From contig NW_024882719.1 in assembly GCF_019059575.1 (NCBI RefSeq), forward strand, positions 124,001-188,000: a stretch of 64,000 nucleotides of DNA, given 5' to 3'. Numbering within the stretch: position 1 is the stretch's first letter; the number at the start of each line of letters is the position of its first letter. Made by a program: the position numbers and the translations under genes. Below the pieces are notes generated by a model, which was given only the letters and a program-made list of their open reading frames with translations, had not been told where the DNA came from and did no database searches. This DNA comes from Amphibalanus amphitrite. Lineage: Eukaryota > Arthropoda > Thecostraca > Balanomorpha > Balanidae. Of this stretch, positions 1 to 64,000 are shown piece after piece.

Positions 1-260
1 CCCTTTGCGGGTTCCGCAGATACCTACCTAACTATCTAAAAAAAAGAAACATGGCAGCGCAGAGGGCCGCCATTTTGTCACATTTGTTAATGCATTTTTC
101 TGCACGTGCTGTTAAAATTCCAGGTCCATGTCTCTCAAGGTCAGGTCACCAGGTCACGTCAAGAGACCTTCCTCAAAGAAGTTAGAGTGATCGATTTTGC
201 TACACCGTCTGAATGATCGATTAGGAGACTACTCAATCTGCTGCTAAATTGAAGGACATT
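1..260 (+). mobile_element. Fragment of an AGGTCA family 2-like element
   Basis: The text around 125-225 (AAGGTCAGGTCACCAGGTCACGTCAAG, split here as AAGGTCAGGTCACC and GGTCACGTCAAG, then CTACACCG and TGAACGATC-like text) matches the left interior of the element at 5.46-5.56 kb. No G-run hairpin or tip is visible; the left end may lie before base 1. Confidence 0.55.
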
Positions 261-299: not shown

Positions 300-3014
300 C
301 TCTAAACTAACCTGTTGCCGCATGAAGCACTAACCCAAGCCGAGGCAGAAAAATAAAAGTATGCATGCATGTTTAAGTACTTATAATAGTTCGCACGTCA
401 ACTAATCACCCTGCACCCTGAGCATCAGCAGACCTCCCAGAGGTACGACGACCTGTCGAAGGTCACCGGTCGGGTCGTTGCCGTCGGAGTGTACGGCGCA
501 GTGGCTCTGACGGTAGCCGACCCCACCGTGGGTTAGCCGCCGCTCGTGTCGCGTTACCGGCTCGAGCTCACAGCGTGAAACCCGCGGCGTCTAATGCCAC
601 GGCGCGTTAACCACTGGGAATCTGCTGTCATGCGCGCTAACCACGCGTGTCACAAAACGCAGGTCATGCAGGGGCTTTGTCCGTCGGCCGGGAGCGTTGC
701 ATGTGCATGATAACGATACGACGGGATCATGATCCAGATCCCGTTTAGAGACGGCAATGAAGAACAGATGAAACAGTGTGATTTGAAAGGAAAAATTGAG
801 ATAGTCGCGGGCCTGCAGGGTTATACTGGTCGCTCCCAAGTATCTATAAGTTGTTTATAAACAAACGTCTTGAGACACTGTCATGTAGTTATAATTGATC
901 ATTGATGAAATGAAAGCCTATCTTAATTCAAATGTGCTTCTCAGAATGCTCAGTTTTTGGATACGTATGACGCCAATGCCATTGTAAGTACAATGCACAT
1001 GTATCCACACCTACGGTTTTGGGTGTGAACAATGGAGTTGCGGCATCTTTGCGCCAAACATCAAGACGGCATGAACAAAAATGAATGAAATTGGGTCACA
1101 ACTAATTCTATTGTGCACCAACTCAACAACAGAACAACAAGCGGTTCACGAACGTAGCCGTTATCTCTTCGTCAGCTATTTGGAGCGTCTCTAGACGGCA
1201 ACTATGACGCAAAGAAGACAATGTTTACGTGCGTATTGTGTTCGCGCTCTGTTTCTGTCTTTGGCACACGGCACCCGACTCACTGTCGTAACGGTTACAG
1301 CACAGCTCGGCACCTGGACTGTGTCGCCAGCCGCTAGACGCACAGACGCCGCTGGACATGGTTTGTCCAGGGTATCACCAACTTGGGACGACTTTGTGAG
1401 ACTGGCCTTGGAAAGACACCCGTCTGGCGCGCCGGCTGGACCGCGCTGCCACCATTAGACGTGTGAAACATGGTCATTGAAGTTGGTCGTCTCCCAGACC
1501 GGATGCCGTGGCTCCCTCACGGCCTTGAAACTAGCCATGACGTATTTCATTCTGCCATCATTAACCGTGTGCGTGGGGAGGGTACTTTGTACCAGACTTG
1601 TTTTTGCTAAGTTCTTACGCAAAATACGGAGGAGCGTGGTATAAGTTCGTATATACTAATATTTAACGCCCAAAATGCTGCCTGCCTAAATCGCAGTTCA
1701 CGCTTGGCGTGACGCATCGCATCAGAAGCTTGACTGCGCTGAACCGTCGCTGTCGGTTTCGTCCTTTGACCTCGCCTTTTGGCACCAAAATACATCTCGA
1801 TAGGTGGTCCTGCCCTCTAGCAGACCAATGCGGTCCCATTGAGGAGGCCATCCGATATCGCGCAGTAACAAGAGAGCGTCCCTGCGGTGCGCCTGGTGAG
1901 CCGTCTGTTTTTGCCACCTCCCGCGGGTATTGGATGACCCCGGCGGTGACACGAGGCGGGGGCGATCAGAGGCGGAGCCGGCAGCAACTGATGGTCGGCG
2001 ATCCGTAAGAACTGATTGGTCAATACAAATAAATAAAATAGGATTCATATTTTGTGTATATGATCATTATTCATTTGCCCTGCCACTGTGGATCGAACAC
2101 GGTAACGCGGCTGACTGCCTGACCAAATCTGCCTGATCATCTATCAACGGTCACCTTGAATAAAACTGTGCTAGCATCGCCTCTGGCACTGTGAAGCGTA
2201 GTCTGCATATAAGCACTGTGTCACCGCTTCCTGCCCAAATCAGCAGCAGTATTCAGCGGTGAGCATCCGCGCTGTCCTCACCAGGTAACGAACACTGACA
2301 CGGACGCTGCAGTGAAACACTTCTCTCCCACGGATCTCTCCCCACGGAACTACTCACCCAATCAGGTGGTGATGTGACAATGACGTCATCACAACCTCCT
2401 TGAGTGTGTGGTGCCAGTGGGGGAACACGACTCGTGGGCAGCTGAAAACCTGACCGCGACGAAGAGGTTTTGACTTTTGACCGTCGAGTTTTCAATAACA
2501 TATTACCTGTGTTTGGCCATCTCAACTGGAAGTAACAGGTAACATCTAGATTCTAGAATTATATGTTCTCTTTCAAATGGATACGTTGCCACGTTTATCA
2601 GCATATATATTCTGAAAATGCCTTCAAATTCATCTAAATATCATTTGATTATTACGTTTACTTGAGCTGTCCTGCTCGTCAGACCTCAAAATACATCGTG
2701 TAACTATAAAGAGACCACGGACTTGCCATTCCATCTGTTTATAGTGTGCGGTGGGGGAGCAATAAAGAAGCTTTTTAAATACATATGTTTGCAATGATTG
2801 TCGTAATTATACTATTTATCTATGCTACTGTCATTACGACCTTTGGTATTTTGCTGCTAAAGCATACCAATCGCATGAAAAGTTACACCCATACCAAGCG
2901 CTAAACGTTACATACCTACTACACATGTGCAGTTCCATATATAAGCATAGGTACTTTTCAAGCGTCGTTGGCATAAAAATAAAACGTTGCCATTTTTTTC
3001 AATGGCAACATGAC
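300..3014. other. Intergenic, no gene seen
   Basis: Only short, unrecognised open frames in GC-rich patches near 420-580 and 1700-2000. No repeat structure noticed. Confidence 0.6.
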
Positions 3015-3018
3015 TTAA

Positions 3019-3903
3019 CCCTCGCATGTGTGCGGCGTTTGCCAGCTTCTAATGTGTAGGGGGGGGGGTCGGTTGGACCCCCCCTTGCCGTTTGGCCCCT
3101 GATCGAGCTAGAGCTTCGCGGAAAAAACGAGCGTGTTGCCCGTGACGAGAGGAAGCCGATGATACCCAATTTTAAGGTCCTAGGTCATTGGTTGACCTTC
3201 CAGGTCAGGTCAATGACCCAAAGTCGGGAAAATCGGGACCTGTTAGAAAGTCGTAAAGTGTGGCTGCTAAGGGGTTTTTCGGGGTGCTGATCACGAATAT
3301 CGTGTTAGTTTTGATCACAGATGATGTCTTGAAGCATTTAGACCAGGTCGGGTCAGGTCAGGTCAGGTCAACCAGTAGGCGTCGTGACGGGTATTCGTAG
3401 TACGTGTCAACCGCCTCTGACAGCTTCGTAACATGTTACGAAGTCACCAAAACTACTTCGTAAATGTTCAAATGGTTGCTAAATTCGAATTCAGCTCCAA
3501 AAACTAGCCTAGAAACATGTAAAACTCGAAAAAGTGACCCGAGGTCACCCGAGGTCACCAAAGGTCAATGACCTGACCTGACCTTCAGGTGACCTTGACA
3601 CACACGGGAGTAACATCAAATCACATGTTTGAACGTTTGAAACCACGAAAAGCTTGCAAACACGCGGCTAGTGCGAGCCGACATACGCGAAATCGCGATT
3701 CCGGCCAAACATGGTCTCGGAAAAGAGGTCACAGGTCAAAGGTCATTTGGGTCAGGGTCATGAAATTTTCAGGGTAGGTGTCAAATTGATCAATGCGAGG
3801 GTACTTAAAGTTTCGTCGCGATCGGCCGCTTTTTACGCGAGTTATTCGCGAAAAACCATGGGGGGGGGGGGTCCATCCGACCCCCCCCCTACACATGCGA
3901 GGG
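3019..3903 (+). mobile_element. piggyBac-like non-autonomous element, AGGTCA family 1, copy A
   Basis: It is flanked by TTAA on both sides (3015-3018, 3904-3907). The tips CCCTCGCATGTGT and ACACATGCGAGGG form a 13-bp perfect inverted repeat. Just inside, both ends carry a G-run/C-run hairpin with loop TCGG(T/A)TGGA; at the left end only, about 20 nt bounded by the direct repeat ATGTGT separates tip and hairpin. The interior holds about 22 GGTCA/TGACC pentamers and the perfect palindrome CTTCGTAACATGTTACGAAG at 3424-3443. It has no coding capacity. Target TTAA and CCC tips are piggyBac hallmarks; assignment to that superfamily is inference. Confidence 0.85.
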
Positions 3904-3907
3904 TTAA

Positions 3908-5316
3908 TCATTAACACACACACCCCCCCCTATCTGCTTGGTGTCTGTCTGTCCTAAGCAATCTCCTTAGACCGTTTTTTTTTGTCAGCGACCGTTCTCA
4001 GCTGAGTCTGCTGCTCACGATTTTCATTGTTTACAAACAAAATTTAGCAAAGATTGGTAAAAGGAAAATTCATTGTATCTACTTTAACGATTGCTGCTTT
4101 TCCAGATAAAAAAATACCACTATCATCAGGTTTTGCGCTCGCGTTCCTGTCTGGTAGAATTCACCCAAAATCATTTCCGAGTGACGTGGTCTGTCGCTCC
4201 TCTTATCACCACTGTGCATGTCCCGAGCAGAGCGGTCACACGGTGCGCCAGCTGCTCCTCTTCACCGGCCCCACGCCGGAAGCACTCAGAGAGCTACCAG
4301 CGTCACTCGCGGCGCGTCACGGGGCGTCCGCGTCACGGGCCGTCACGCGGCGGCTGAACTTGGCACCGCGCCGCGTCACGGCGCCTTCGGGCGTCACGCG
4401 GCGTCGCCGGAGCGTCACGCTGGTCACACAGGGCGCCCCGGGGGCAGGCGGCGCGGCGGCCGGCGCGCGGTGCTCATTGTTTCTGGCCGGTCCTGTGCAG
4501 AGCTCCAACGGAGGCAGTGACCGGAACAGAGGGGACTCCGCGGGTGCTATTGACGGTCACGGAAGCCAACCCGACCCTAGTGATGTAGCATGGCGCCGCG
4601 CGAGGTGCAGGTCACAGGGTGGCAACAACAGCCTTTGGTGGCAGCCGGCATCACATAAAAACTGCATGGAATTTGATTGATCGTTGGTGATGAACGGTAA
4701 TGATAAGTACCCTACTTAATCGAGCGTGCTAGCAAACTATGCGGCACAGTATACAAAAGATGCTATGCCGTTAAATTAGCCGGTACACGCAGTATATAAG
4801 GCAATATATAGATACAAAAACATTGAATGCTTAGTAATCGGAACACTTTAAATAACCATCACATTCTTGCAGTGAATGATACACGATTCGTATTGGTCTC
4901 AGTCGTTCAACCACGCAATGCCAGCCTCTTATTATTCGCAAATGAGTATGTGCTGAAAGTGATAAGGACAAAACTACCTGCTAAAGGTGCATAACAGCAG
5001 CACCCTTAGTATCACAAATCTGGCATTATTTTTCTCCCTTTACGGGTGCAAAATGCGGTTACAGTGTGGTTAGAGGGGTTTCAAAACGATCTTAATTTTG
5101 CACTTATTTTGCTTTTCTATAGGATTACCCGATGACAGCAGAAGTAAGCCTGCCCAAAACGATACAAAATGTATGATGGCTTCTTACGGTCACATATTGT
5201 GCTCGTTGCCAAATATGTGAAGTGTATGACTACAATAGGCTTAAGCGTTTTTCATTCTCGTATATACAGGTGTGTATAAATATTTCTTTATTTCCACCAC
5301 CACTGACCAGCACTAG
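3908..5316. other. Intergenic, no gene seen
   Basis: It holds the GCGTCAC cluster at 4297-4440. Otherwise unremarkable and AT-rich. Confidence 0.6.
4297..4440. repeat. Cluster of GCGTCAC motifs in GC-rich DNA
   Basis: GCGTCAC or CCGTCACG occurs about eight times in 140 bp at irregular spacing. The open frames across it (for example 4054-4680) look compositional. A weaker group of similar motifs lies at 9120-9260. Confidence 0.6.
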
Positions 5317-5320
5317 TTAA

Positions 5321-6507
5321 CCCGCGCCGTGCTGGGGGGGGGGGGGGCGTTTTTACGCCCCCCCCCCTCAGGTTTTTCGCGAATATCTCAAAAACGGCGG
5401 CGCGCAGCGCCGCCGTTTTTGGTACACGTGTTCCTACATCATTTCCGCACATGTTGTGAAAATTTCAGACCTAGGCCGTTCAAGGTCAGGTCACCAGGTC
5501 ACGTCAAGTGACCTTACCTCAGAAAAAGTTCAAAGGCTCGCTATAGCTACACCGACTGAACGATCACTTTGAAACTTTCAGCGATTGATATGAGTAACAG
5601 TATGTATAAAATGTATATCTCGGATTTTTGATATCTGTGACCTAAGGTCAGGTCAATTTTGCGACCTCTCCATTATAAGTCAATGGGAGAAAATTGAAAT
5701 GCGCCTCTTTTGGACGAATATCGTTCAAAACGCTCTCAAACATCGGTTCATAGGTAAACATGACACACTGAATAGGAAAAATGCACCTGTGACCCCTCTG
5801 TGTGCCCCTGAGGTCATCTCAGGTCATGAACGGTCGCCAGCAGTTTTTTGGCTATAACTTTTGATAGAGACGTGCTAGAGCGGTGAAAACACGTCAGATG
5901 TGTTCAGCTCGACGATACGGATCGACTGATATGCAATATGACCCTTTTCGGTCAGGTCATGACCTTGACCTGAGGTCAAATTTTCAAAATGACCTTTCAA
6001 GGTCAACGAATAGTTCATTCGACGCGTCTCGACGAGAGGAACACGATGCTGGCAAAAGTAATGTCATGGCGCTTATGAGTCAAAAGTTATTGACGAAAAA
6101 ACGTTTTTCGTAAAAACGGCTATTTTTGGAGTTTTTGCCCTCTGGAGGCTAAACCGTTGACCTGAGGTCAAATCTGAGAACATTACTCAGAAAGGTCTGT
6201 AAAAGGGCTATCGAATGCGCTTTTCCGCGGCGCTGTAGCTCTATCGGTTCCCGAGATAGCCGTTGGCAGTTTCCAAAATGTTGAAATAGTCAACATTTTA
6301 CCTTTGGTGACCTCTGGTGACCTGACCTTTGACCTGACCCAAAAAATGACCGAAGTGTTTTCGTCCTTATTTTTGACGCTCTTTCGATTGCCGCTTACCG
6401 CGTGTCGCTACGTGGCCCAGGAGCCGAGTTAGACGGGGGGGCGTGAAAACGCCCCCCCCCCCCCCCCAGCACTCGGCGGAAAGTTCAGGCCACCAGCACG
6501 GCGCGGG
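5321..6507 (+). mobile_element. piggyBac-like non-autonomous element, AGGTCA family 2
   Basis: TTAA at 5317-5320 and 6508-6511 flanks 15-bp perfect tips CCCGCGCCGTGCTGG and CCAGCACGGCGCGGG. G-run/C-run hairpins with loop CGTTTT(T)ACG lie inside both ends. The one-sided spacer is at the right end: CCAGCAC, about 20 nt, CCAGCAC. The interior is rich in AGGTCA half-sites and shares a core with the 40.3-kb element, including GTGACCTAAGGTCAGGTCA and ATTATAAGTCAATGGG. The 1187-bp element has no coding capacity. Confidence 0.85.
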
Positions 6508-10139: not shown

Positions 10140-11338
10140 CCCGCGCCCTGGTGGGGTCTGTTTATAACGCGACCTGGTGGGGGGGGGCTATTTTTTGCCC
10201 CCCCCCCTCGTATCTCCGAAACTACTGGACGGATCCGCAAAATTCAAACGGCGTTCGAAAGGCCTGTCAAATTTGTTAAGGGAAAGCAAATTTCATTGAC
10301 CTCGGGGTCACCGATGACGTCACAGGTCAGGTCAAAGATGACATGTTTCACCGTTCACGGGTCATCTAGGAAATGCGCTATAACACCGAAGAAAACGCAT
10401 TTTGTCGAGAATCAGCGATAGGGCGTCAGTTGCCTAGTAGATATGTTGCTATTAGAGGTCACTGACAATACTAGGTCAGGTCACAGGTCAGGTCACCAAG
10501 GGTCACAGGTCAGGTCACATGAGCCCAACTTTACTAAGGTTGTGTGATGCATGTTTTATGGCCAATTTTTCATTTCCAACTCAATGGTGCTGGTTATAAG
10601 ACTATCAGGTATGGCTTAGGTCACTTTCTGGTAAAGTTCAGGTCAAGGTCAGGTCAAGGTCATGCCAAAAAAGGTCAAATTTTAAAGTTGATAGTTTTGC
10701 ATAAAATGGGTATTGATTCGATGCAGCTCGTCACGGGGAGTCTAATGGTGGTCTTTGTTGTGTGCTACGGGGTCTAGAATTGCTAAAAATTGAGTTTGAA
10801 AATTTGACGTCATCAATTTTGAACAGTTTTTTCGCTCTAACTTCGCCAAAAAAGAGGTATCAATCTAAAATGTGGTATGTGGATGGAAGGCGGTAAGGAC
10901 TATCACATATATTCCGGTTTTTGCGAAATTCAATTTTTTGGGATTTTTCGATGATTATATAAAAAAAAAATATTTTTTGATTTTTGGGGTGTCAAAATCC
11001 AAAAATTTGAAAAATCCGAGATAGCAGTTTTGTAGCCCTGTCAATTCTACAGCTTTTATGTCATTATCATTTTTCTGTATTTGCAAAGCTATAGGCCTGA
11101 CAGCTCTTCCCGCGAAACCCTTTTTTGGGTCGAAAACGGCAGAACATGACGTCACTCTGACGTCATTTCCGGCCAACCTATCATAGCCTTTGGAAAAAAA
11201 TTTTTGGTCAAAATGTGTAAAATTGATGTCCTGGAGGGTACTGAAAGTTTGGTGACGATCTGCGCAGCGGTTCTGGATATATATCGAAAAGTCTAGAGGG
11301 GGGGGGGCAAAAAATAGCCCCCCCCACCAGGTCGCGGG
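10140..11338 (+). mobile_element. piggyBac-like non-autonomous element, AGGTCA family 5
   Basis: The tips CCCGCGCCCTGGT and ACCAGGTCGCGGG differ at one position. The hairpins have loop CTATTTTTTG on the left and its complement on the right. The left end has the spacer (CCTGGT, 20 nt, CCTGGT). The flanks are TATA on the left and CTAA on the right, so the expected TTAA duplication is decayed or the boundary is off by a base or two. AGGTCA half-sites are concentrated at 10300-10690; the rest is AT-rich. It has no coding capacity. Confidence 0.72.
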
Positions 11339-11342
11339 CTAA

Positions 11343-12207
11343 AGAAACATATAACATATAAGTGTGATAAGAATACAAAAGTGTCCGTGAAGTTCTAAAT
11401 GCAATAAACACGCAATAATGCTTTTGGAAACATATAATCAGCCTCGATAGTTGCAACATATTTTGCGATGCTGCATCAGAAGCTAGGACACACGCAATGA
11501 GTCGGATACCAAAGGCACAGCTACCTTAGTGGCCAGGGCAAAACGACTTTATCCTGGGCTCCCAGGAGGCAGTCTACCTTTACTCAGGTGTTCACACCAC
11601 TCACTCACAGCCATGCAGTCAGCCTGCACCCTGTGCCCGCCCTGGACGCTATCGTGCACTGATTGCCGTGTCGGCAGTGTGACCCCTTGTGGCCGGTCCC
11701 AGGCGGCGCTGGACGCCGTCCACTGAGGTGCCGCTCTCCCACACCGGGGCGGCAGTTAATGGTCGGTCAGGGCGCCGCCGAGCCAGTCAGAGGTCGCTGC
11801 TCCGGTATGGGGAAGCTGCCGGCCGCACCGCCAGGTCGCCGACCCGTCGGAGAGTCATTACGGCACGCCGCTATTACACGAGGTGTTGCAGTAATTACCT
11901 ATGCACAGTGCTGGCGCCGTGTAGCGGGCGGTGCGTGGAATTGGTAATTATAGGACAAAAAGTAGCGGCAGGGGTCTAAGGAGGAAACACAACTGTGGAG
12001 CATTCTTGATCGGTAAATTCGCTAGCCTAGACTTATCAAATGCGTTTGCCATAGCTGAACTTCTGCATGCATTCCTAACTTTATATAAAATTTATGAAGA
12101 TTCTATTGTAATTTGCCTTTGGGATAAGCTTCCGTTAATAGCTCACCCTTTCGTTTGCTTCAATTCGTAACGATGAGTTGATAGTTCAAAGTGTTCGCAC
12201 TGTTATG
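11343..12207. other. Intergenic, no gene seen
   Basis: Short overlapping open frames at 11530-11980 are GC-driven and unrecognised. Confidence 0.55.
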
Positions 12208-12599: not shown

Positions 12600-13945
12600 C
12601 GAACGGGTTCGAAGGAAACTGCAATGGAGAACAAACATATACCACACTGGCGGAGACTGCAACGAAGGAGAGGCACATATCACACTGGAGACTGCAGTGA
12701 TGGACAAAAACGTACCACCAACAGAGACTTCAATGAAAGATAGACGCAACGAAAGATAGACACATATCGCACATTGGTGAATATTACAACGAAGGGCAGA
12801 CACAACACTGGTGGAGACTGCAACAAAGGGCAGACCAATAGCACACATTGGTGGAGACTGCAACGAAAGACAGATATATCACAGACGGAGACTGCAGCGC
12901 ATAATAAATACACATCACCAAAGGAGACTGCAACGAAGGACAAGAACATATCACTAGTGAAGGCTGAAAAGGACGCCCATTTAACTCAAATGGAGACTGC
13001 AACGAAGGACAGAAACATGTCACTAGTGAAATTTGCAGCGAAGGACAGACTCTTAGTGGAAACTGCACCGAGACAGATGCATACCACAAACCGGTGGAGG
13101 GAGTGCAATGAAGGACAGAAACATATTACTGGCGGAGACTTCAGACTGCAAAGGACACCCGCATCACATATTAGTGGGGACTGCAACAGAGAACCGTAAC
13201 ACAACTCAGTGGAGACTGCAACGGAGGACAGAGACGAAGCACACCTCAGTGGAGACTGCAACGGACACCTCAGTGGAGACTGCAACGGAGGACAGAAACG
13301 TAACACACCTCAGTGGAGACTGCAACGGAGGACAGAAACGTAACACACCTCAGTGCAGACTGCAACGGAGGACAGAACCGTAACACACCTCAGTGCAGAC
13401 TGCAACGGAGGACAGAAACGTAACACACCTCAGTGCAGACTGCAACGGAGGACCGAAACGTAACACATCTCAGTGGAGACTGCAACGGAGGACAGAAACG
13501 TAACACACCTCAGTGGAGACTGCAACGGAGGACAGAAACGTAACACACCTCAGTGGAGACTGCAACGGAGGACAGAAACGTAACACACCACAGTGGAGAC
13601 TGCAACGGAGGACAGAAACGTAACACACCTCAGTGGAGACTGCAACGGAGGACAGAAACGTAACACACCTCAGTGGAGACTGCAACGGAGGACATAAACG
13701 TAACACACCTCAGTGGAGACTGCAACGGAGGACAGACACATATCACTGGTGTAGACTGCAACAATGGAGACACATCACACACTAATGGAGACTATAACGA
13801 AAGACACACCCATATCACACACTAGGGAGACTTCAACGAAGAACAAACAAACCACTGATGAAGACTGAAACGAAGGACAGACATATCACACTGATGGATA
13901 CTGCAACGGAGGACGGACACACATCACGAGACTGCAACGAAAGAC
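12600..13945. repeat. 40-bp minisatellite with degenerate flanks
   Basis: The core (about 13196-13735) repeats a 40-bp unit, CAGTGGAGACTGCAACGGAG plus GACAGAAACGTAACACACCT, about 13 times with few changes. On both sides (12600-13195, 13736-13945) units are degenerate and of uneven spacing but keep GGAGACTGCAACGAAGGACA. The open frames across it are a by-product of the repeat. Confidence 0.93.
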
Positions 13946-15989: not shown

Positions 15990-38604
<22,615 letters not shown>

Positions 38605-40323: not shown

Positions 40324-41311
40324 CCCTATTCCTGGCGGGGGGGGGGGCCTCAGGAGCCCCCCCCGGAGGTTTTTTGGTTATTTCTCCCAAACGCGTTGAG
40401 CTAGGAAGCTCAAATTTTCTGACTTTTCCTAAAAGGCTTCTACGCAACATGTCTGAAAATTTTGAGTTGATCTGACCTCAGGTCAGGTCACCAGAGGCGG
40501 TTTGGTGACCCTACCTCAGAAAAGTTTGCAATCACGCCAGAGCTAGAGTTTTTGACCGATCAATTTCTTCTCTTCAGGCTTTAGTAAGGGTACCAGTATG
40601 TGCAATTTGTATATCTCGGAATTTTGATATCGGTGACCTAAGGTCAGGTCAGTTTCGCGACCTCCCCATTATAAGTCAATGGGGGAAAATCAACTCCCTG
40701 TTTTTACCACTAAAACGGGTCGGAATGGCCCCATATACCATACATGACTTCATATACGATCAACCTTCACTACCTTGAGGTCTGTTTTGCTGTTGGGCAG
40801 CTGTGAGGTCATGTGACGTCATCAAAGGTCACCAAAGGTTTTTGGCCAATAACTCCGTACAGGAACAAGATACAGACGCATGGATGATCTCATTGTGTTC
40901 AGCTCGTCAAGACGCATCGAATGATATATATGATGACCTCGAGGTCACGTGACCTGAGGTCAACCTTTGACCTTGACCTTTCGAGGTCAACATAAATATC
41001 ATTCGATGCGGATTGACGAGAGGATCACGATGATGCCCTTAGTTTGTTCCTATCTTGACTAATTCGAAAGTTATTCAAGAAAAACTCTCTCCATATCTAG
41101 CGCCGCCATTTTGACTTTTTCGACCCCTGTGACGTCATCTTTGACCTGACCTGAAAATGACCTTTGTAAAAATTGTAGATCTTGACCGTGCGTATCCGAT
41201 GCCGTCTACCGTTTGTCGCTGCGATGTGTAGTTTTTGAGATCTGAAGGGGGGGCCGAATCGGCCCCCCCCCCGCCAGTTTCTTGTCCCGGCGGAGCCCGC
41301 CAGGAATAGGG
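40324..41311 (+). mobile_element. piggyBac-like non-autonomous element, AGGTCA family 4
   Basis: TTAA at 40320-40323 and 41312-41315 flanks tips CCCTATTCCTGGCGG and CCGCCAGGAATAGGG. Poly-G/poly-C hairpins lie inside both ends. The right end has the extra spacer (CGCCAG, about 20 nt, CGCCAG). The core aligns with the 5.3-kb element but the tips differ. A long internal inverted repeat spans 40903-41020, with arms containing CGCATCGAATGATAT and its complement, joined by AGGTCA half-sites. It sits inside a degenerate tandem repeat, so a sister unit at about 41401-41440 serves as an approximate empty site. Confidence 0.85.
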
Positions 41312-42322: not shown

Positions 42323-43221
42323 CCCTCGCATGTGTGCGGCGTTTTCCAGCTTCTAATGTGTAGGGGGGGGGGGGGGTCGGTTGGACCCCCCTTGCCGTTT
42401 GGCCCCTGATCGAGCTAGAGCTTCGCGGAAAAAACGAGCGTGTTGCCCGTGACGAGAGGAAGCCGATGATACCCAATTTTAATGTCCTAGGTCATTGGTT
42501 GACCTTCCAGGTCAGGTCAATGACCCAAAGTCGGGAAAATCGGGACCTATTAGAAAGTCGTAAAGTGTGGCTGCTAAGGGGTTTTTCGGGGTGCTGATCA
42601 CGAAAATCGTGTTAGTTTTGATCACAGATGATGTCTTTAAGCATTTAGACCAGGTCTCGGGTCAGGCCAGGTCAGGTCAATCAGTAGGCGTCGTGACGTG
42701 TATTCGTAGTACGTGTCAACCGCCTCTGACAGCTTCGTAACATGTTACGAAGGCACCGAAACTACTTCGTAAATGTTCAAATGCTTGCTAAATTCGAATT
42801 CAGCTCCAAAAACTAGCCTAGAAACATGTAAAACTCGAAAAAGTGAACCGAGGTCACCCGAGGTCACCAAAGGTCAATGACCTGACCTGACCTTCAGATG
42901 ACCTTGACACCCACCCTAATGCATGGGAGCAACATCAAATCACATGTTTGAACGTTTGAAACCACGAAAAGCTTGCAAACGCGCGGCTAATGCGAGCCGA
43001 CGTACGCCGAATCGCGATTCCGGCCAAACATGGTCTCGGAAAAGAGGTCACAGGTCAAAGGTCATTTGGGTCAGGGTCATGAAATTTTCAGGGTAGGTGT
43101 CAAATTGATCAATGCGAGGGTACTGAAAGTTTCGTCGCGATCGGCCGCTTTTTACGCGAGTTATTTGCGAAAAACCATGGGGGGGTCCATCCGACCCCCC
43201 CCCCCCCTACACATGCGAGGG
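42323..43221 (+). mobile_element. piggyBac-like non-autonomous element, AGGTCA family 1, copy B
   Basis: It has the same orientation, tips, left-end spacer and central palindrome (42733-42752) as the 3.0-kb copy and is nearly identical along its length; differences are mainly G/C-run lengths, a few substitutions and a short insertion near 42910. TTAA lies at 42319-42322 and 43222-43225. The high identity of two copies 39 kb apart suggests recent mobility. Confidence 0.87.
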
Positions 43222-51270: not shown

Positions 51271-51385
51271 CACGACGGCCATCTATAATACACATTTTGT
51301 GCAGATAAGGTGCACATTTGGTGCAGATTTGTTCAAATTAGATGGACATTCGCCAGGAAGCCCTTCGTAAAAACGGCCATTATCC
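51271..51385. mobile_element. Short relative of the 60.6-kb inverted-repeat element
   Basis: It begins TTTCACGACGGCCATCTA, contains GGTGCACATTTGGTGCAGAT and ends GTAAAAACGGCCATTA, matching segment a of the 60.6-kb element including its tip. It sits immediately inside the left arm of the 3.06-kb TA-flanked element. Confidence 0.55.
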
Positions 51386-51394
51386 GCTCGTTTC

Positions 51395-51934
51395 CAGTCT
51401 TTTTGTGATCGTAAACGTTCAAACATGTAAAATGATGGTGGTCCCATGCATTATGGTGGGTGTCAAGGTCACGTGAATGTCAGGTCAAGGTCATTGACCT
51501 TTGATGACCTTAGTTCACTTCTTCTGGGCTCATATATTTTTTAGGCTAGTTTTTCGAGCTGATTTCGAATTTAGCACCCATTTGAACATTTACGAAGTAA
51601 TTTTGGCGCCTTCCTACAATGTCACGAAGCTGTCAGTGTTGGTTGACACCTATTATGGACAGCTAGCAAGACGCCTACTGGTTAACCTGACCTGACCTGA
51701 CCCGACCTGGCCTAAAAGCATCAAGACATCATCGGTGATCAAAGCTAACATGAAATTCGTAATCAGCGCCCCGAAAAACCTCGTATCAACTAACTCTCCA
51801 AAATATGACTTGTTAAAGGTCATAGGTCCCGATTTTCCCGACTTTTGAGTCACTGGCCTGACCTGGAAGGTCAACCAATAACCTAGCCCTGCCTTTTGCG
51901 TTTGCAGCTAGCAAAACACCAATAAGGGCGAGAG
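51395..51934 (-). mobile_element. Partial AGGTCA family 1-like element in inverted orientation
   Basis: Read on the minus strand this matches roughly the left two-thirds of the family 1 interior, in reverse order of the 3.0-kb copy: GGTCAACCAATGACC-type text near 51870, the period-5 GGTCA array near 51690 and the short-arm region near 51600. Neither tip is recognisable. It lies head-to-head against the element that starts at 51939. Confidence 0.6.
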
Positions 51935-51938
51935 TTAA

Positions 51939-53524
51939 CCCCGCAGGACCTGTTGGTTTTCTACATACGCGCCGGCCGGGGGGAGGGCTGTGTACGACCC
52001 CCTCGTCGTTTTTCGCCCCCGTTGGATTTAGAGCGTCGCGGAAAAAACGAGCGTGTGTGCCGTTAGGAGACACAACAGCTAGTACCCGATTTTAAGGTCT
52101 CAGGTCAACTGGTGACCTCTGAGGTCGGGTCATGTGACCCAAGACACGGGTTCGGTTTTTGATCAATAACTTTTTTAAAAACAGTTGCAGAGCGCGATTT
52201 TAGCATAAACGTGCTCGCCTTGCTCAGGCGTGTCGAATGGTATACTTTTTGTTCGGATGAGGTCAACTTGAGGTGTTGACCTCGGGTCAAGGTCAGGTCA
52301 GAGACCCCTAGGTCGTGAAATTGGTCAAAAGAGGTCATGTTGCATTTTATTCGATTCGGCAGGTCTTCCTCAGTCCATTGGTGGCTTGACCGACTCGCTA
52401 GCTCAGTTTGATCGGGAGTTATTGACGAAAAGCTCGTAGGACCCTAGTGACGTCATAATCACGCAACGTCAACAATGCAAAACTGAAGCTTCTAACTTTT
52501 GCAAGGAGTGCATGAAATCACGATCCGTGTGCTTGCAATAGTTTGAGATTGCTCCCGGCGCCAGAATAGCAGTTTTCATTTTTCTCAATTGACTTATAGT
52601 GTTGAGGTCACGTGACCGACCTGACCTCATGTGATCTTTAGGAAAAATCCTAGAGGTACAAGTTGTGAGACTTCTACATAGGAGATGCACGTTCTGTAAG
52701 TTTCATCCCCTGTAAAAGCTCCTCCGGGACTGAGGGCGTTGCGAAGTTGCGGCATCTGAGGACCGTCCACTTATGACGTCATAGGTCAGTAACCTGACCT
52801 GACCTGAAAATTTGGTTGGTGTCACAAAATCCGGCTTGAATCAAAGGTCAGGTATGCCTAGTTTCAGCTCTCTGTTACTGGCGTGTTCGGAGCTATGGCG
52901 AAAAAAAAAACTAGGGGGCGAGGATTAAGCTAGGCTGGTTTGGGTAAGTTTGGGTCAAGTAGTTTTAGGCGTCCCACCCGCACCAGCTATTTATAGCAGC
53001 TGTACCTAAACCACCAGCGACAGCTTCGTAGCAAGTTGCATTGGCACCACAACTATACGTACTTCGCAAATGTCTCAACGAATGCTGGATTCGAAATAAG
53101 CTAAAAAAAATCTTTAAAATCGTACAATTTGGAACAGTCACCTGAAGTCACCAAACGTCAATGACCTTGACCTGGCCGACAACTGACAAGTCAACTTGAA
53201 ACCCATTATGATGCATGGGACAACCATCAGTTCATATGTTGGCACGTTTATATGTAATCACAATGGAAGTCTGGAAACGCAATTTAGTGTGCGCTAACAT
53301 AAACGGCAAATCATTTCGGTCTGCCATGGTCTCAGAAATCAGATCAAAGGTCAAAGGTCATTGGTTTTAGGATCATGTACTGTAGGTATAGGGAATGTGT
53401 AACCAGTAACGTAGATAAGTTCGAGGACACTCAAAGTTTCGTCACGATCGGCCGCTTTTAGCGCGAGATAATCGCGAAAAAAAACGAGGGGTTTTATCCG
53501 ACCCGCACCCCTAAAAGTGTGAGG
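51939..53524 (+). mobile_element. Old diverged AGGTCA family 1-like element
   Basis: TTAA lies at 51935-51938 and GGG|ATAA at the right end. The left part matches the family 1 interior (CGCGGAAAAAACGAGCGTG) and the right part matches its end (ATCGGCCGCTTTTAGCGCGAG). The end hairpins and the central palindrome have decayed. It lies in the same orientation as the 3.0-kb copy, within the 3.06-kb TA-flanked element. Confidence 0.6.
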
Positions 53525-54002
53525 GATAACCCGCACACGGATAGCGACGGATATCCATCACACCTACCCCAGTAACTCTATTTTCCACATGTAAGCATAT
53601 GCTGGCGATATAATGCAGCCAAAATTATCACAGTTACGTAAGTACCTTGTCCCGGGCACCACCTATACTCCTGAGCTGAATGTTCAAATTGTGTTCTCCT
53701 TTTCTCTTAAGCTGAACTAGATTGAACAAGATTTTCATTGGAAAAGATTGTTGACTGTGAAACGAGACTCCTGTGAAACGAGACTCGATGAATTCTTAAA
53801 CTCCCTAGTTATTTTGTAACAACCCTAGGTTCGTTGCATACTAACTAGGGAGTTTGCAACGACCCTAGTTTCGTTACAACGTCCCGGAACGAGCAGTTAT
53901 TTTGTAACGTCCCTAGGGTCGTTGCAAACAAACTGATCGTTCAGGGAGGTTACAACCACCCTAGGGTCGTTGCAAACTAACTGAAATCGCATACTCCCTG
54001 TA

Positions 54003-59959: not shown

Positions 59960-60563
59960 GCTGTGGTCATTTCAGGTCAAGCTAGGTCAAGATCAATGAT
60001 GAGTGTTTGTATGTCTGTGTGTATACTGATGTGTGCACCGATTGGTTTGTGTGTCCCTATTACATGAGATCATGATCAGCAAAGGGTAAGACTTTTCAGA
60101 TTTCAGATTCAAGGTCTTGATCATGTAGCTTTTACCAAAAATGCAGTAAAAAAAAACTTCACGAAAAGGAAATTCAGCAAGCCTAAAATGTAATGTTTTT
60201 AGATGACCTAGGTTAACCTTGACCTTGACCCTGACATCTGTACATCGTCGAACAACATGTTCCATGATAGGTGGGAGGTAAGACTGGCAAAAAAGCCGAA
60301 ATCAAGGTGTCAAAAGCTCATAAGACCCATAACCAACGCAAGATGTTGGATATTTGTCAGTTGGGTCATGACATGACCTGAAAAACAAGGTAATATCTCC
60401 GAAACCAAAAACCACAGAAACTTGACATTTTCATTGGACATCAAGAAAGGATAGAGGAGCAGCTATACGAAAAATCAGGCTTCAAGCTCTAACAATGTTG
60501 AGTGCAGAGCAGAAAAACTGCCTGGGGGCACCCCCCCCCCCCAACATGTGCGGGCGAGGGCTA
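59960..60563 (+). mobile_element. Truncated AGGTCA element with right end preserved
   Basis: The right tip, read inward on the minus strand, is CCCTCGCCCGCACATGTT followed by a G13 run and GTGCCCCCAGG, similar in design and partly in sequence to family 1 tips; the flank is CTAA. AGGTCA/TGACC half-sites lie at 59975-59995 and 60215-60235. I see no matching left end, so the left limit is approximate. Confidence 0.5.
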
Positions 60564-63715: not shown

Positions 63716-64000
63716 CCCGGCACCGCCTGGGCTATTTCCGTACCCACGACAGCCTGGGGGGTCGGATCCGACCCCCTCTGTTATCTCGAGAACCAATGGT
63801 CGTATCGAGCCCCGGGCGAGGCGGCGTTCGAAAGGTCTCTACGAGACCTTCCCAAAGCACTCTTAAGATTTTAAAATTGAGGTCAACTTTCGGGTCAAGG
63901 TCAGGTCAAAGGTCAAATTCTGGGGTTTTGCATGATTAGGCTTACGGACAGCGGAATCGATAGCTGCTGCCCGAAACTCACCAAAAATGACCACCTCAAA
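63716..64000 (+). mobile_element. AGGTCA family 5-like element, left end only, running off the window
   Basis: The flank is TTGA (degenerate TTAA), with tip CCCGGCACCGCCTGG, a 21-nt spacer, a repeat of GCCTGG, then the hairpin GGGGGGTCGGATCCGACCCC. Inside it resembles the 10.1-kb element: GGCGGCGTTCGAAAGG and a cluster of GGTCA half-sites at 63880-63915. The right end lies beyond base 64000. Confidence 0.72.

Follow-up and report, generated by a model that had tools for sequence, protein, structure and literature searches.

The 64,000-nucleotide stretch of Amphibalanus amphitrite DNA analyzed here (contig NW_024882719.1, C1222:124001-188000; hereafter the window) contains a group of miniature inverted-repeat transposable elements (MITEs) that are probably non-autonomous piggyBac elements, moved by transposases encoded by relatives in the same genome. 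Five elements of ~0.9–1.2 kb are complete, all on the forward strand: two of family A (3019..3903 and 42323..43221) and one each of family B (5321..6507), family C (10140..11338) and family D (40324..41311). The family A, B and D elements have 13-bp matching CCC tips and lie exactly between TTAA copies (at 3015-3018 and 3904-3907 for the element at 3019..3903), which agrees with an earlier annotation made from the letters alone (the sequence-only reading). The family C element, listed there as diverged or partial, is complete, with palindromes at both ends, flanks of TATA and CTAA, and two tips that differ at one base. Directly inside both tips of the elements lies a palindrome composed of a G-run, a short loop and a C-run, again as described earlier; in the first family A copy the palindrome of the left end (3059..3084, forward strand) reads G10-TCGGTTGGA-C7 and that of the right end (3860..3889, reverse strand) reads G9-TCGGATGGA-C12 from the tip. 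The loop had been described as mirrored between the two ends of a family, which holds for families A, B and C, where the loops are equal or one base apart, and fails for family D (CCTCAGGAG vs CCGATTCGG).

The two ends are not equivalent, a point missing from the sequence-only reading. Each of the five complete elements pairs a short end, whose G-run lies ~13 nt inside the tip, with a long end, whose G-run lies at ~40 nt. The long end is on the left in families A (3019-3084, with the short end at 3860-3903) and C, and on the right in families B and D. Several further members of the group are diverged or partial, including a B-like stretch (47..218, forward strand, 76% identical; within the 1-260 interval named earlier), an A-like interior (51378..51886, reverse strand, 77–79% identical), an A-like interior plus end (53019..53525, forward strand, 66–68% identical), part of a further family with its long end at a TTAA and a diverged palindrome (51939..52500, forward strand, the end coordinate 52500 being arbitrary), and the long end of another family (CCCGGCACCGCCTGGG...; 63716..64000, forward strand), which has a TTGA flank and is cut by the window end. 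Two other members proposed by the sequence-only reading, at 59960 and 63275, were not confirmed, with no match to the element library at E 1e-8. An Rfam scan of the window returned no match.

The short and long ends are discrete classes beyond the window. Among 44 end strings, selected by eye for being distinct out of the first 100 genomic places matching a general design pattern (see below) that permitted 11–41 nt between tip and G-run, the G-run starts 13–15 nt from the tip in 18 and 39–41 nt in 26, with none between. These strings carry 34 different 13-nt tips, or 12 groups when two mismatches are allowed. The long offset exceeds the short offset by 26–27 bp in families A, B and D and in the three transposase-bearing lineages introduced below. 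Of the 26 long-end strings, 14 have five or more nucleotides directly before the G-run that exactly repeat part of the tip, 10 repeat just 3–4 nt and two repeat none. All 28 paired family B copies among the first 100 family B tips listed likewise have one short and one long end. A comparable asymmetry has been described for the piggyBac element of Trichoplusia ni (T. ni). According to excerpts of the structural report (PMC7351741), a dimer of the cysteine-rich domain (CRD) binds a palindromic 19-bp repeat common to its ends LE35 and RE63, RE63 contains a 17-bp insertion and a duplication, RE bp 34-63 are nearly equal to LE bp 7-35, and the authors called the asymmetry puzzling. The offset difference in T. 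ni is 28 bp. Because of its position and symmetry, we infer that the G-run palindrome may be the equivalent of this 19-bp repeat.

The elements are very numerous. The design pattern, TTAACCC-N(8-38)-G7-N(2-16)-C6, starts at 31,100 forward-strand places in the genome searched (807.6 Mb in 2,644 contigs), compared with 3 for the reversed pattern that served as control. The reverse strand gave 97,106, a figure inflated by the separate listing of every C-run end; if both strands are alike, the genome would hold ~62,000 ends, or roughly 31,000 elements, an estimate that leaves out ends whose runs are broken or that lack TTAA. Replacing TTAA by TTAT gave 660 forward places (control, 4) and by ATAT 377 (control, 13). 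ATAT had been considered as a neutral control for the pattern counts and was dropped in favor of the reversed pattern, since many of the listed ATAT-flanked copies have ATAT at both ends. The exact, TTAA-flanked long-end tip of family A has 1020+991 genome copies (reversed control, 0), and among eight family A loci fetched by this tip, TTAA borders both ends in seven; in the eighth (L003) there is no exact copy of the right tip. Family B tips occur 788+773 times. The paired family B copies have the same flanking 4-mer on both sides in 24 of 28 cases (20 TTAA, 2 TTAT, 1 ATAT, 1 ATAA) and mismatched 4-mers in four. The first 100 family B tips listed, in a tally that left out tips with a G four bases out, are preceded by TTAA (72), ACCA (6), TTAG (6), ATAA (4), TTAT (3), ATAT (2) and others (7). 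The genome-wide tip search proposed by the sequence-only reading recovered copies that end at the tips, mostly at TTAA. The radiation is real, very abundant and recently active-looking.

The occasional departures from TTAA were rejected as a novelty, as TTAT, ATAA and CTAA have been reported as minor targets beside TTAA for Pokey of Daphnia pulex in the portions of that study used here (PMC3849761), and an account in PMC6651600 describes piggyBac at CTAA/TTAG and ATAA/TTAT with the central TA conserved. The ATAT target likewise retains the central TA. The six ACCA-preceded family B tips are all short-end tips (e.g., C1:1137008, C7:288243 and C13:1890459) and may be part of another repeat. Two family A copies 59 kb apart on C1 (L001 and L002) have identical flanks over the bases compared, which suggests a duplicated region or the assembly of both haplotypes.

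Empty sites were sought, as the sequence-only reading had proposed, and were found for two elements. The joined flanks of the family A copy at 42323..43221 match C616:317034-317260 over all 220 bases at 93% identity and across the junction, where a precise empty site contains one TTAA and no scar, and the homologous flanks extend on both sides. For a family D copy nested in one of the transposase-bearing elements (auto2, below), two places on C264 align across the joined site with 82% identity, and a further eight cover most of it at 75%.

The interiors of the elements are loaded with the pentamer GGTCA/TGACC. The count of about 22 given by the sequence-only reading for the 885-bp family A copy proved to be exactly 22, and the elements at 5321-6507, 40324-41311 and 42323-43221 contain 26, 21 and 20, compared with means of 2.3–2.6 and maxima of 6–7 in dinucleotide-preserving shuffles (300 each). 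With the family C element included (counted over 10140-11345), all five have 20–26, against shuffle means of 2.3–2.7 and maxima of 6–8. The density is 17–25/kb in the MITEs and 3.9/kb in the window outside the five elements. An A precedes the pentamer in 171 of 228 instances, giving AGGTCA, and the commonest start-to-start spacing on the same strand is 5 bp (41), followed by 10 bp (19) and 6 bp (13).

A search of the genome with Pfam PF13843 gave 116 scored matches among 232 candidates, and end sequences were read around part of these loci (30 at ~4 kb, 12 at ~5 kb, and a few wider or further copies). Three transposase lineages with G-run palindromes at both ends (poly-G elements) were recovered, auto1, auto2 and auto3, with lengths of 4.0–6.0 kb and open reading frames (ORFs) of 645–673 aa; they encode the DDD piggyBac transposase that the sequence-only reading had suggested looking for beside such ends. 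The auto1 element (L040, 119-4081) has a 646-aa ORF; a second copy (L050) is 99.0% identical and runs exactly from TTAA to TTAA, a third (L052) has both ends plus an insertion, and a fourth (L053) was fetched with one end. The auto2 element (C702:33513-39477) has a 673-aa ORF and the nested family D MITE. The auto3 element (C431:240291-245014) has poly-G palindromes at both ends and a short tip that begins CCT; its 645-aa ORF was read in a C33 copy (L047) that is 99.9% identical, while a copy on C257 matches across 4.1 kb only. The second end, not apparent at L047 and L051, was supplied by a third auto3 copy (L057/L058). The short end lies 5' of the gene and the long end 3' in all three lineages, which is also the arrangement in T. 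ni piggyBac.

The transposases of auto1–3 match Pfam DDE_Tnp_1_7, with the three DDD motifs aligned and kept. The auto1 protein matches the T. ni transposase (6x67) through the CRD at E 2e-78 and is more distant from piggyBat (3e-30), and for auto3 the corresponding values are 1e-56 and 5e-21; the transposase of L022, which lacks poly-G ends, fits piggyBat better (2e-27) than T. ni (7e-10). The comparison with solved structures covered auto1 and auto3 among the poly-G lineages and gave T. ni piggyBac as the best match for both. In the tree, a clade of auto1–3 and the L036 transposase (96/92) has T. ni piggyBac as its sister (100/99), and the genome's 13 other rows fall outside this grouping. 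A test of the poly-G label on the tree counts two changes, because L036 bears no label. Further, auto1–3 and L036 share a CRD of the T. ni type (order CxxC-CxxC-CxxH-CxxC) with 10–12 more residues than in T. ni, several of them basic, between the first two CxxC. A regular expression did not find the T. ni-type CRD in the 13 other genome ORFs compared, nine of which have another CRD type and four of which have neither type, some of these four being cut short.

In several piggyBac families of this genome the ends are ordinary (CCCATTAGTGCCC, for example) and lack G-runs; for other families no matching ends were found. Four candidates for autonomous poly-G copies (L041, L045, L048 and L020) were rejected, since there the palindromes with a recognizable tip point outward from the gene, as parts of neighboring MITEs; in addition to these, L045 has a second palindrome at 4675 and L041 at 4259. 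The hairpin at L042 was rejected as an end of its own because it belongs to a nested family D MITE. Locus L028 was also rejected as a partner, because there a piggyBac element with CCCATTAGTGCCC tips (671-3343) and no poly-G ends is nested within a poly-G MITE.

The poly-G MITEs and the transposase-bearing elements share sequence well beyond the tips. The MITE type present at L028 and L050 matches auto2 at 82–90% over its first ~120 bp and at 84–87% over the remaining 0.8–1.0 kb, and the auto2 transposase gene lies between these two blocks. There is no TTAA-CCC tip at either internal junction between MITE and auto2. Given the match at two ends and the lack of a junction tip, the alignments indicate that, relative to auto2, this MITE is an internal deletion and that the auto2 gene did not come in as a nested insertion. 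The long-end region of auto3 is matched by family B over 578 alignment columns (70.6%, E 8e-64), and that of auto1 by family A over 140 (68.6%, E 3e-10).

The GGTCA enrichment extends to the same three lineages. In auto1 the density is 11–12/kb in noncoding sequence and 3.6/kb in the ORF (7 pentamers vs a shuffle mean of 4.8), and auto2 and auto3 have 42 each vs means of 11 (maxima 21 and 22), mostly outside the ORFs. Six piggyBac elements without poly-G ends are at chance level (1.5–3.3/kb), two at or below the shuffle mean and four slightly above, the highest being L010 (10 vs 6.7, sd 2.4). Conservation of the pentamer between related elements was compared with that of 5-mers of the same composition (one-sided, in one direction, with motifs taken from the first-named element). 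GGTCA was better kept in four comparisons that are not mutually independent, B/D (13/18 vs 31/90, p 0.003), B/auto3 (11/16 vs 24/76, p 0.007), D/auto3 (7/9 vs 15/48, p 0.013) and C/L028 (15/19 vs 59/113, p 0.025), and showed no excess in family A vs 51378-51886 (10/17 vs 42/73, p 0.57) or C/auto2 (8/19 vs 46/101, p 0.70). Counts without p values are 14/19 vs 55/101 for C/L050, 20/22 vs 106/125 for the two window copies of family A, and 12/25 vs 66/113 for L028/auto2, the last running against GGTCA conservation. As MITEs need no promoter, the retention of the pentamer in them hints at a role in mobilization, though some of the apparent retention could reflect slipping alignments of tandem arrays.

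Collectively, the elements are best explained as non-autonomous piggyBac MITEs moved in trans by the T. ni-type clade of the same genome, which has like ends, a reading to which we assign a probability of roughly 0.82. It draws on features seen directly in the sequence, namely the TTAA duplication, the CCC tips, the combination of one short and one long end, the empty site, the DDD relatives and the one deletion-type MITE, and it bears out the earlier assignment to piggyBac-type non-autonomous families, which had been based on the tips and TTAA and now has the empty sites and DDD relatives in addition. Under this model, a transposase dimer would cut at the CCC tips through the first 13–14 bp, while paired C-terminal CRDs would clamp the G-run/C-run palindrome just inside the tip. 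The long end, with its extra 26–27 bp and its frequent repeat of part of the tip, would seat a second, non-catalytic dimer, as has been proposed for T. ni RE63, and the GGTCA arrays may be partly conserved cis sites that aid mobilization or expression.

Several observations weigh against this reading. Both ends were read in three auto1 copies (L040, L050 and L052) and in one copy each of auto2 and auto3; auto2 contains a nested MITE, the short tip of auto3 is CCT and not CCC, and the ends of the L036 element were looked for and not found. On the tree, piggyBat is placed beside the T. ni group and not with the 13 other rows from the genome, on a long branch and with an unsure position. Twenty-eight of the first 100 family B tips listed lack a TTAA flank, and one of the two C264 empty sites has TCAA (the other has TTAA). 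The G-run varies from 6 to 16 nt in length, so the distance from tip to palindrome center is not constant, unlike in T. ni, and the T. ni palindrome sequence itself is absent from these ends, with the G-run/C-run palindromes in its place; this absence lowers the case for the same sequence specificity and not that for the same layout. That the CRD would read the G-runs is an inference, and all of the evidence is static sequence from one assembly.

The role of the palindromes admits a different explanation, in which their effect would come from DNA structure (a cruciform, a G-quadruplex or a slippage hotspot) and the protein recognizes only the 13-bp tip together with that structure. The runs are long and of variable length between copies, as this would predict, and folded as single DNA strands five tested palindromes reach −10.7 to −19.7 kcal/mol. 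Two of the five fold better than all 200 of their shuffles; the other three, matched by 11, 45 and 12 of 200, are not clearly better, and the constant short and long offsets coincide with the position of the CRD-bound T. ni repeat in elements whose transposases possess a T. ni-type CRD, which makes the structural explanation unlikely. Mobilization by other piggyBac transposases of the genome, such as the family with a 595-aa ORF and CCCATTAGTGCCC tips, would be compatible with the near-identical intact copies of that family at many loci and with the generality of TTAA targeting among piggyBac elements. Wherever both ends of such elements were located, however, the first 75–80 bases are free of G-run palindromes and the tips have a different sequence after CCC. 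Those of their transposases that possess a CRD have a different type of it, and L022, the one examined, is nearer to piggyBat than to T. ni piggyBac. In addition, the similarity of family A to auto1, of family B to auto3 and of the L028/L050-type MITE to auto2 extends past the tip, and mobilization from outside the poly-G clade appears highly improbable. An origin outside piggyBac can be given virtually no credence. Kolobok is another superfamily with TTAA duplications, and the target alone does not discriminate between them, but the three full-length elements with G-run ends encode DDE_Tnp_1_7 transposases with T. ni-type CRDs, two of which (auto1 and auto3) match T. ni piggyBac best among solved structures, and on these full-length elements non-piggyBac superfamilies were excluded.

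The GGTCA arrays could alternatively be half-sites for nuclear receptors, linking expression of the transposase or the opening of chromatin to hormone signaling in the host, and not neutral repeats or binding sites of the transposase; we regard this possibility as doubtful, though worth keeping in view. The predominance of AGGTCA (171/228), the enrichment in auto1 noncoding sequence and not in its ORF, the chance level in the six elements without poly-G ends and the better conservation in four of the six tested pairs (p 0.003–0.025) would all fit such sites. Conversely, two of the six pairs are null (p 0.57 and 0.70), the four positive pairs are not independent, the L028/auto2 comparison (12/25 vs 66/113) runs the other way, and tandem arrays can keep alignment register by slipping. 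Further, the AGGTCA hexamers overlap at the commonest 5-bp spacing, which is not that of a classical receptor direct repeat. A more far-reaching proposal, which seems to us improbable on present sequences, is that the clade has changed its end-recognition code, with the CRD and its extra basic stretch reading the G-run arms, that slippage eases the origin of new MITE families because it easily re-makes G-runs, and that GGTCA ties mobilization to host nuclear receptors. If true, this combination of changed code, slippage and receptor coupling would explain the tens of thousands of copies and the many tips.

Under the favored reading of piggyBac MITEs served by a T. ni-type clade, much of the system has precedent. 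As in T. ni piggyBac (6x67/6x68; PMC7351741, in the excerpts used), there is a TTAA target, a CCC tip followed by an inner palindrome at the short end, a longer second end with a duplicated segment (by 26–27 bp here and 28 bp in T. ni), and a DDD transposase with a CRD of the CxxC..CxxC..CxxH..CxxC type. Unlike in T. ni, the palindrome arms are G- and C-runs of variable length around a family-specific core of ~5–13 nt, the CRD has its 10–12 extra residues, and GGTCA arrays and a very large MITE radiation are present. Pokey and its MITE mPok in Daphnia pulex (PMC3849761) offer another crustacean piggyBac with large MITEs (mPok, ~750 bp) that are thought to be deletion derivatives; in the portions of that study used, mPok has 90–110 copies, whereas tens of thousands are estimated here, Pokey has a specific 28S rDNA site, and neither G-run palindromes nor GGTCA arrays are mentioned. 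The coral CMITEs (PMC2872659, in part) are also piggyBac/TTAA MITEs with an interior conserved between families, but are ~100 bp long, and that text mentions no G-run palindromes. For piggyBat of Myotis lucifugus, the extracts of PMC11707139 and of the preprint PMC13405395 describe a CRD dimer on a palindrome inside the left tip, as we would expect here, and a second non-catalytic dimer that helps synapsis, as proposed here; unlike the elements described here, piggyBat has a CRD of a different fold and a divergent right end without a palindrome.

The sequence-only reading had not recognized the end design from any described family. In part this stands, as the G-run arms and GGTCA arrays appear to be new, while the asymmetry and the inner palindrome are as in T. 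ni (PMC7351741, excerpts). As far as the literature searched goes, by title or opening of the abstract, no G-run palindromes or GGTCA arrays are named in piggyBac ends, and the G-run palindromes, longer CRD and GGTCA arrays are undescribed; the layout and the class of mechanism are already known. The retention of the same asymmetry across 34 tips in 12 groups points to a constraint of mechanism. The T. ni element serves as a standard tool for gene delivery. The families described here provide a series of naturally occurring CRD/palindrome pairs in which the arms are G-runs and the transposases are near enough to T. ni to model, such that the specificity of end recognition is directly testable. 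Additionally, the GGTCA arrays pose the question, open to testing, of host factors in piggyBac mobilization.

Several other features were observed in the auto1 copies. Upstream of the transposase ORF in L040, at element positions ~1045-1200 (+118 for locus coordinates), there are GAANNTTC arrays, which we take to be heat-shock-element-like, followed by a TATAAAAG box at element position 1343; GAANNTTC occurs once in auto2 and is absent from auto3. The 5' noncoding part of auto1 contains 187-bp tandem repeats (L040 257-686, 2.3 copies) that include GGTCAGGTCAGGTCA and the palindrome TGACGTCA, and at L040 60-170 a pair of auto1 left ends is arranged head to head around one common TTAA. The copy at L052 is interrupted at ~3395-4248 by an insertion of ~830 bp with CAGGGCTGGTAAA-like inverted ends, where the repeated AGCCCACC looks like an 8-bp duplication of the hAT-like kind.

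Elsewhere in the window, a non-LTR retrotransposon occupies 26838-30876, with a 385-aa ORF that has no Pfam match, followed by a 786-aa ORF for an endonuclease and reverse transcriptase and a further ORF in another frame (30313-30876), after which comes a (TC)101 tract (30969-31170). A 40-bp tandem repeat at 13265-13736 comprises ~12 copies with 97% matches.

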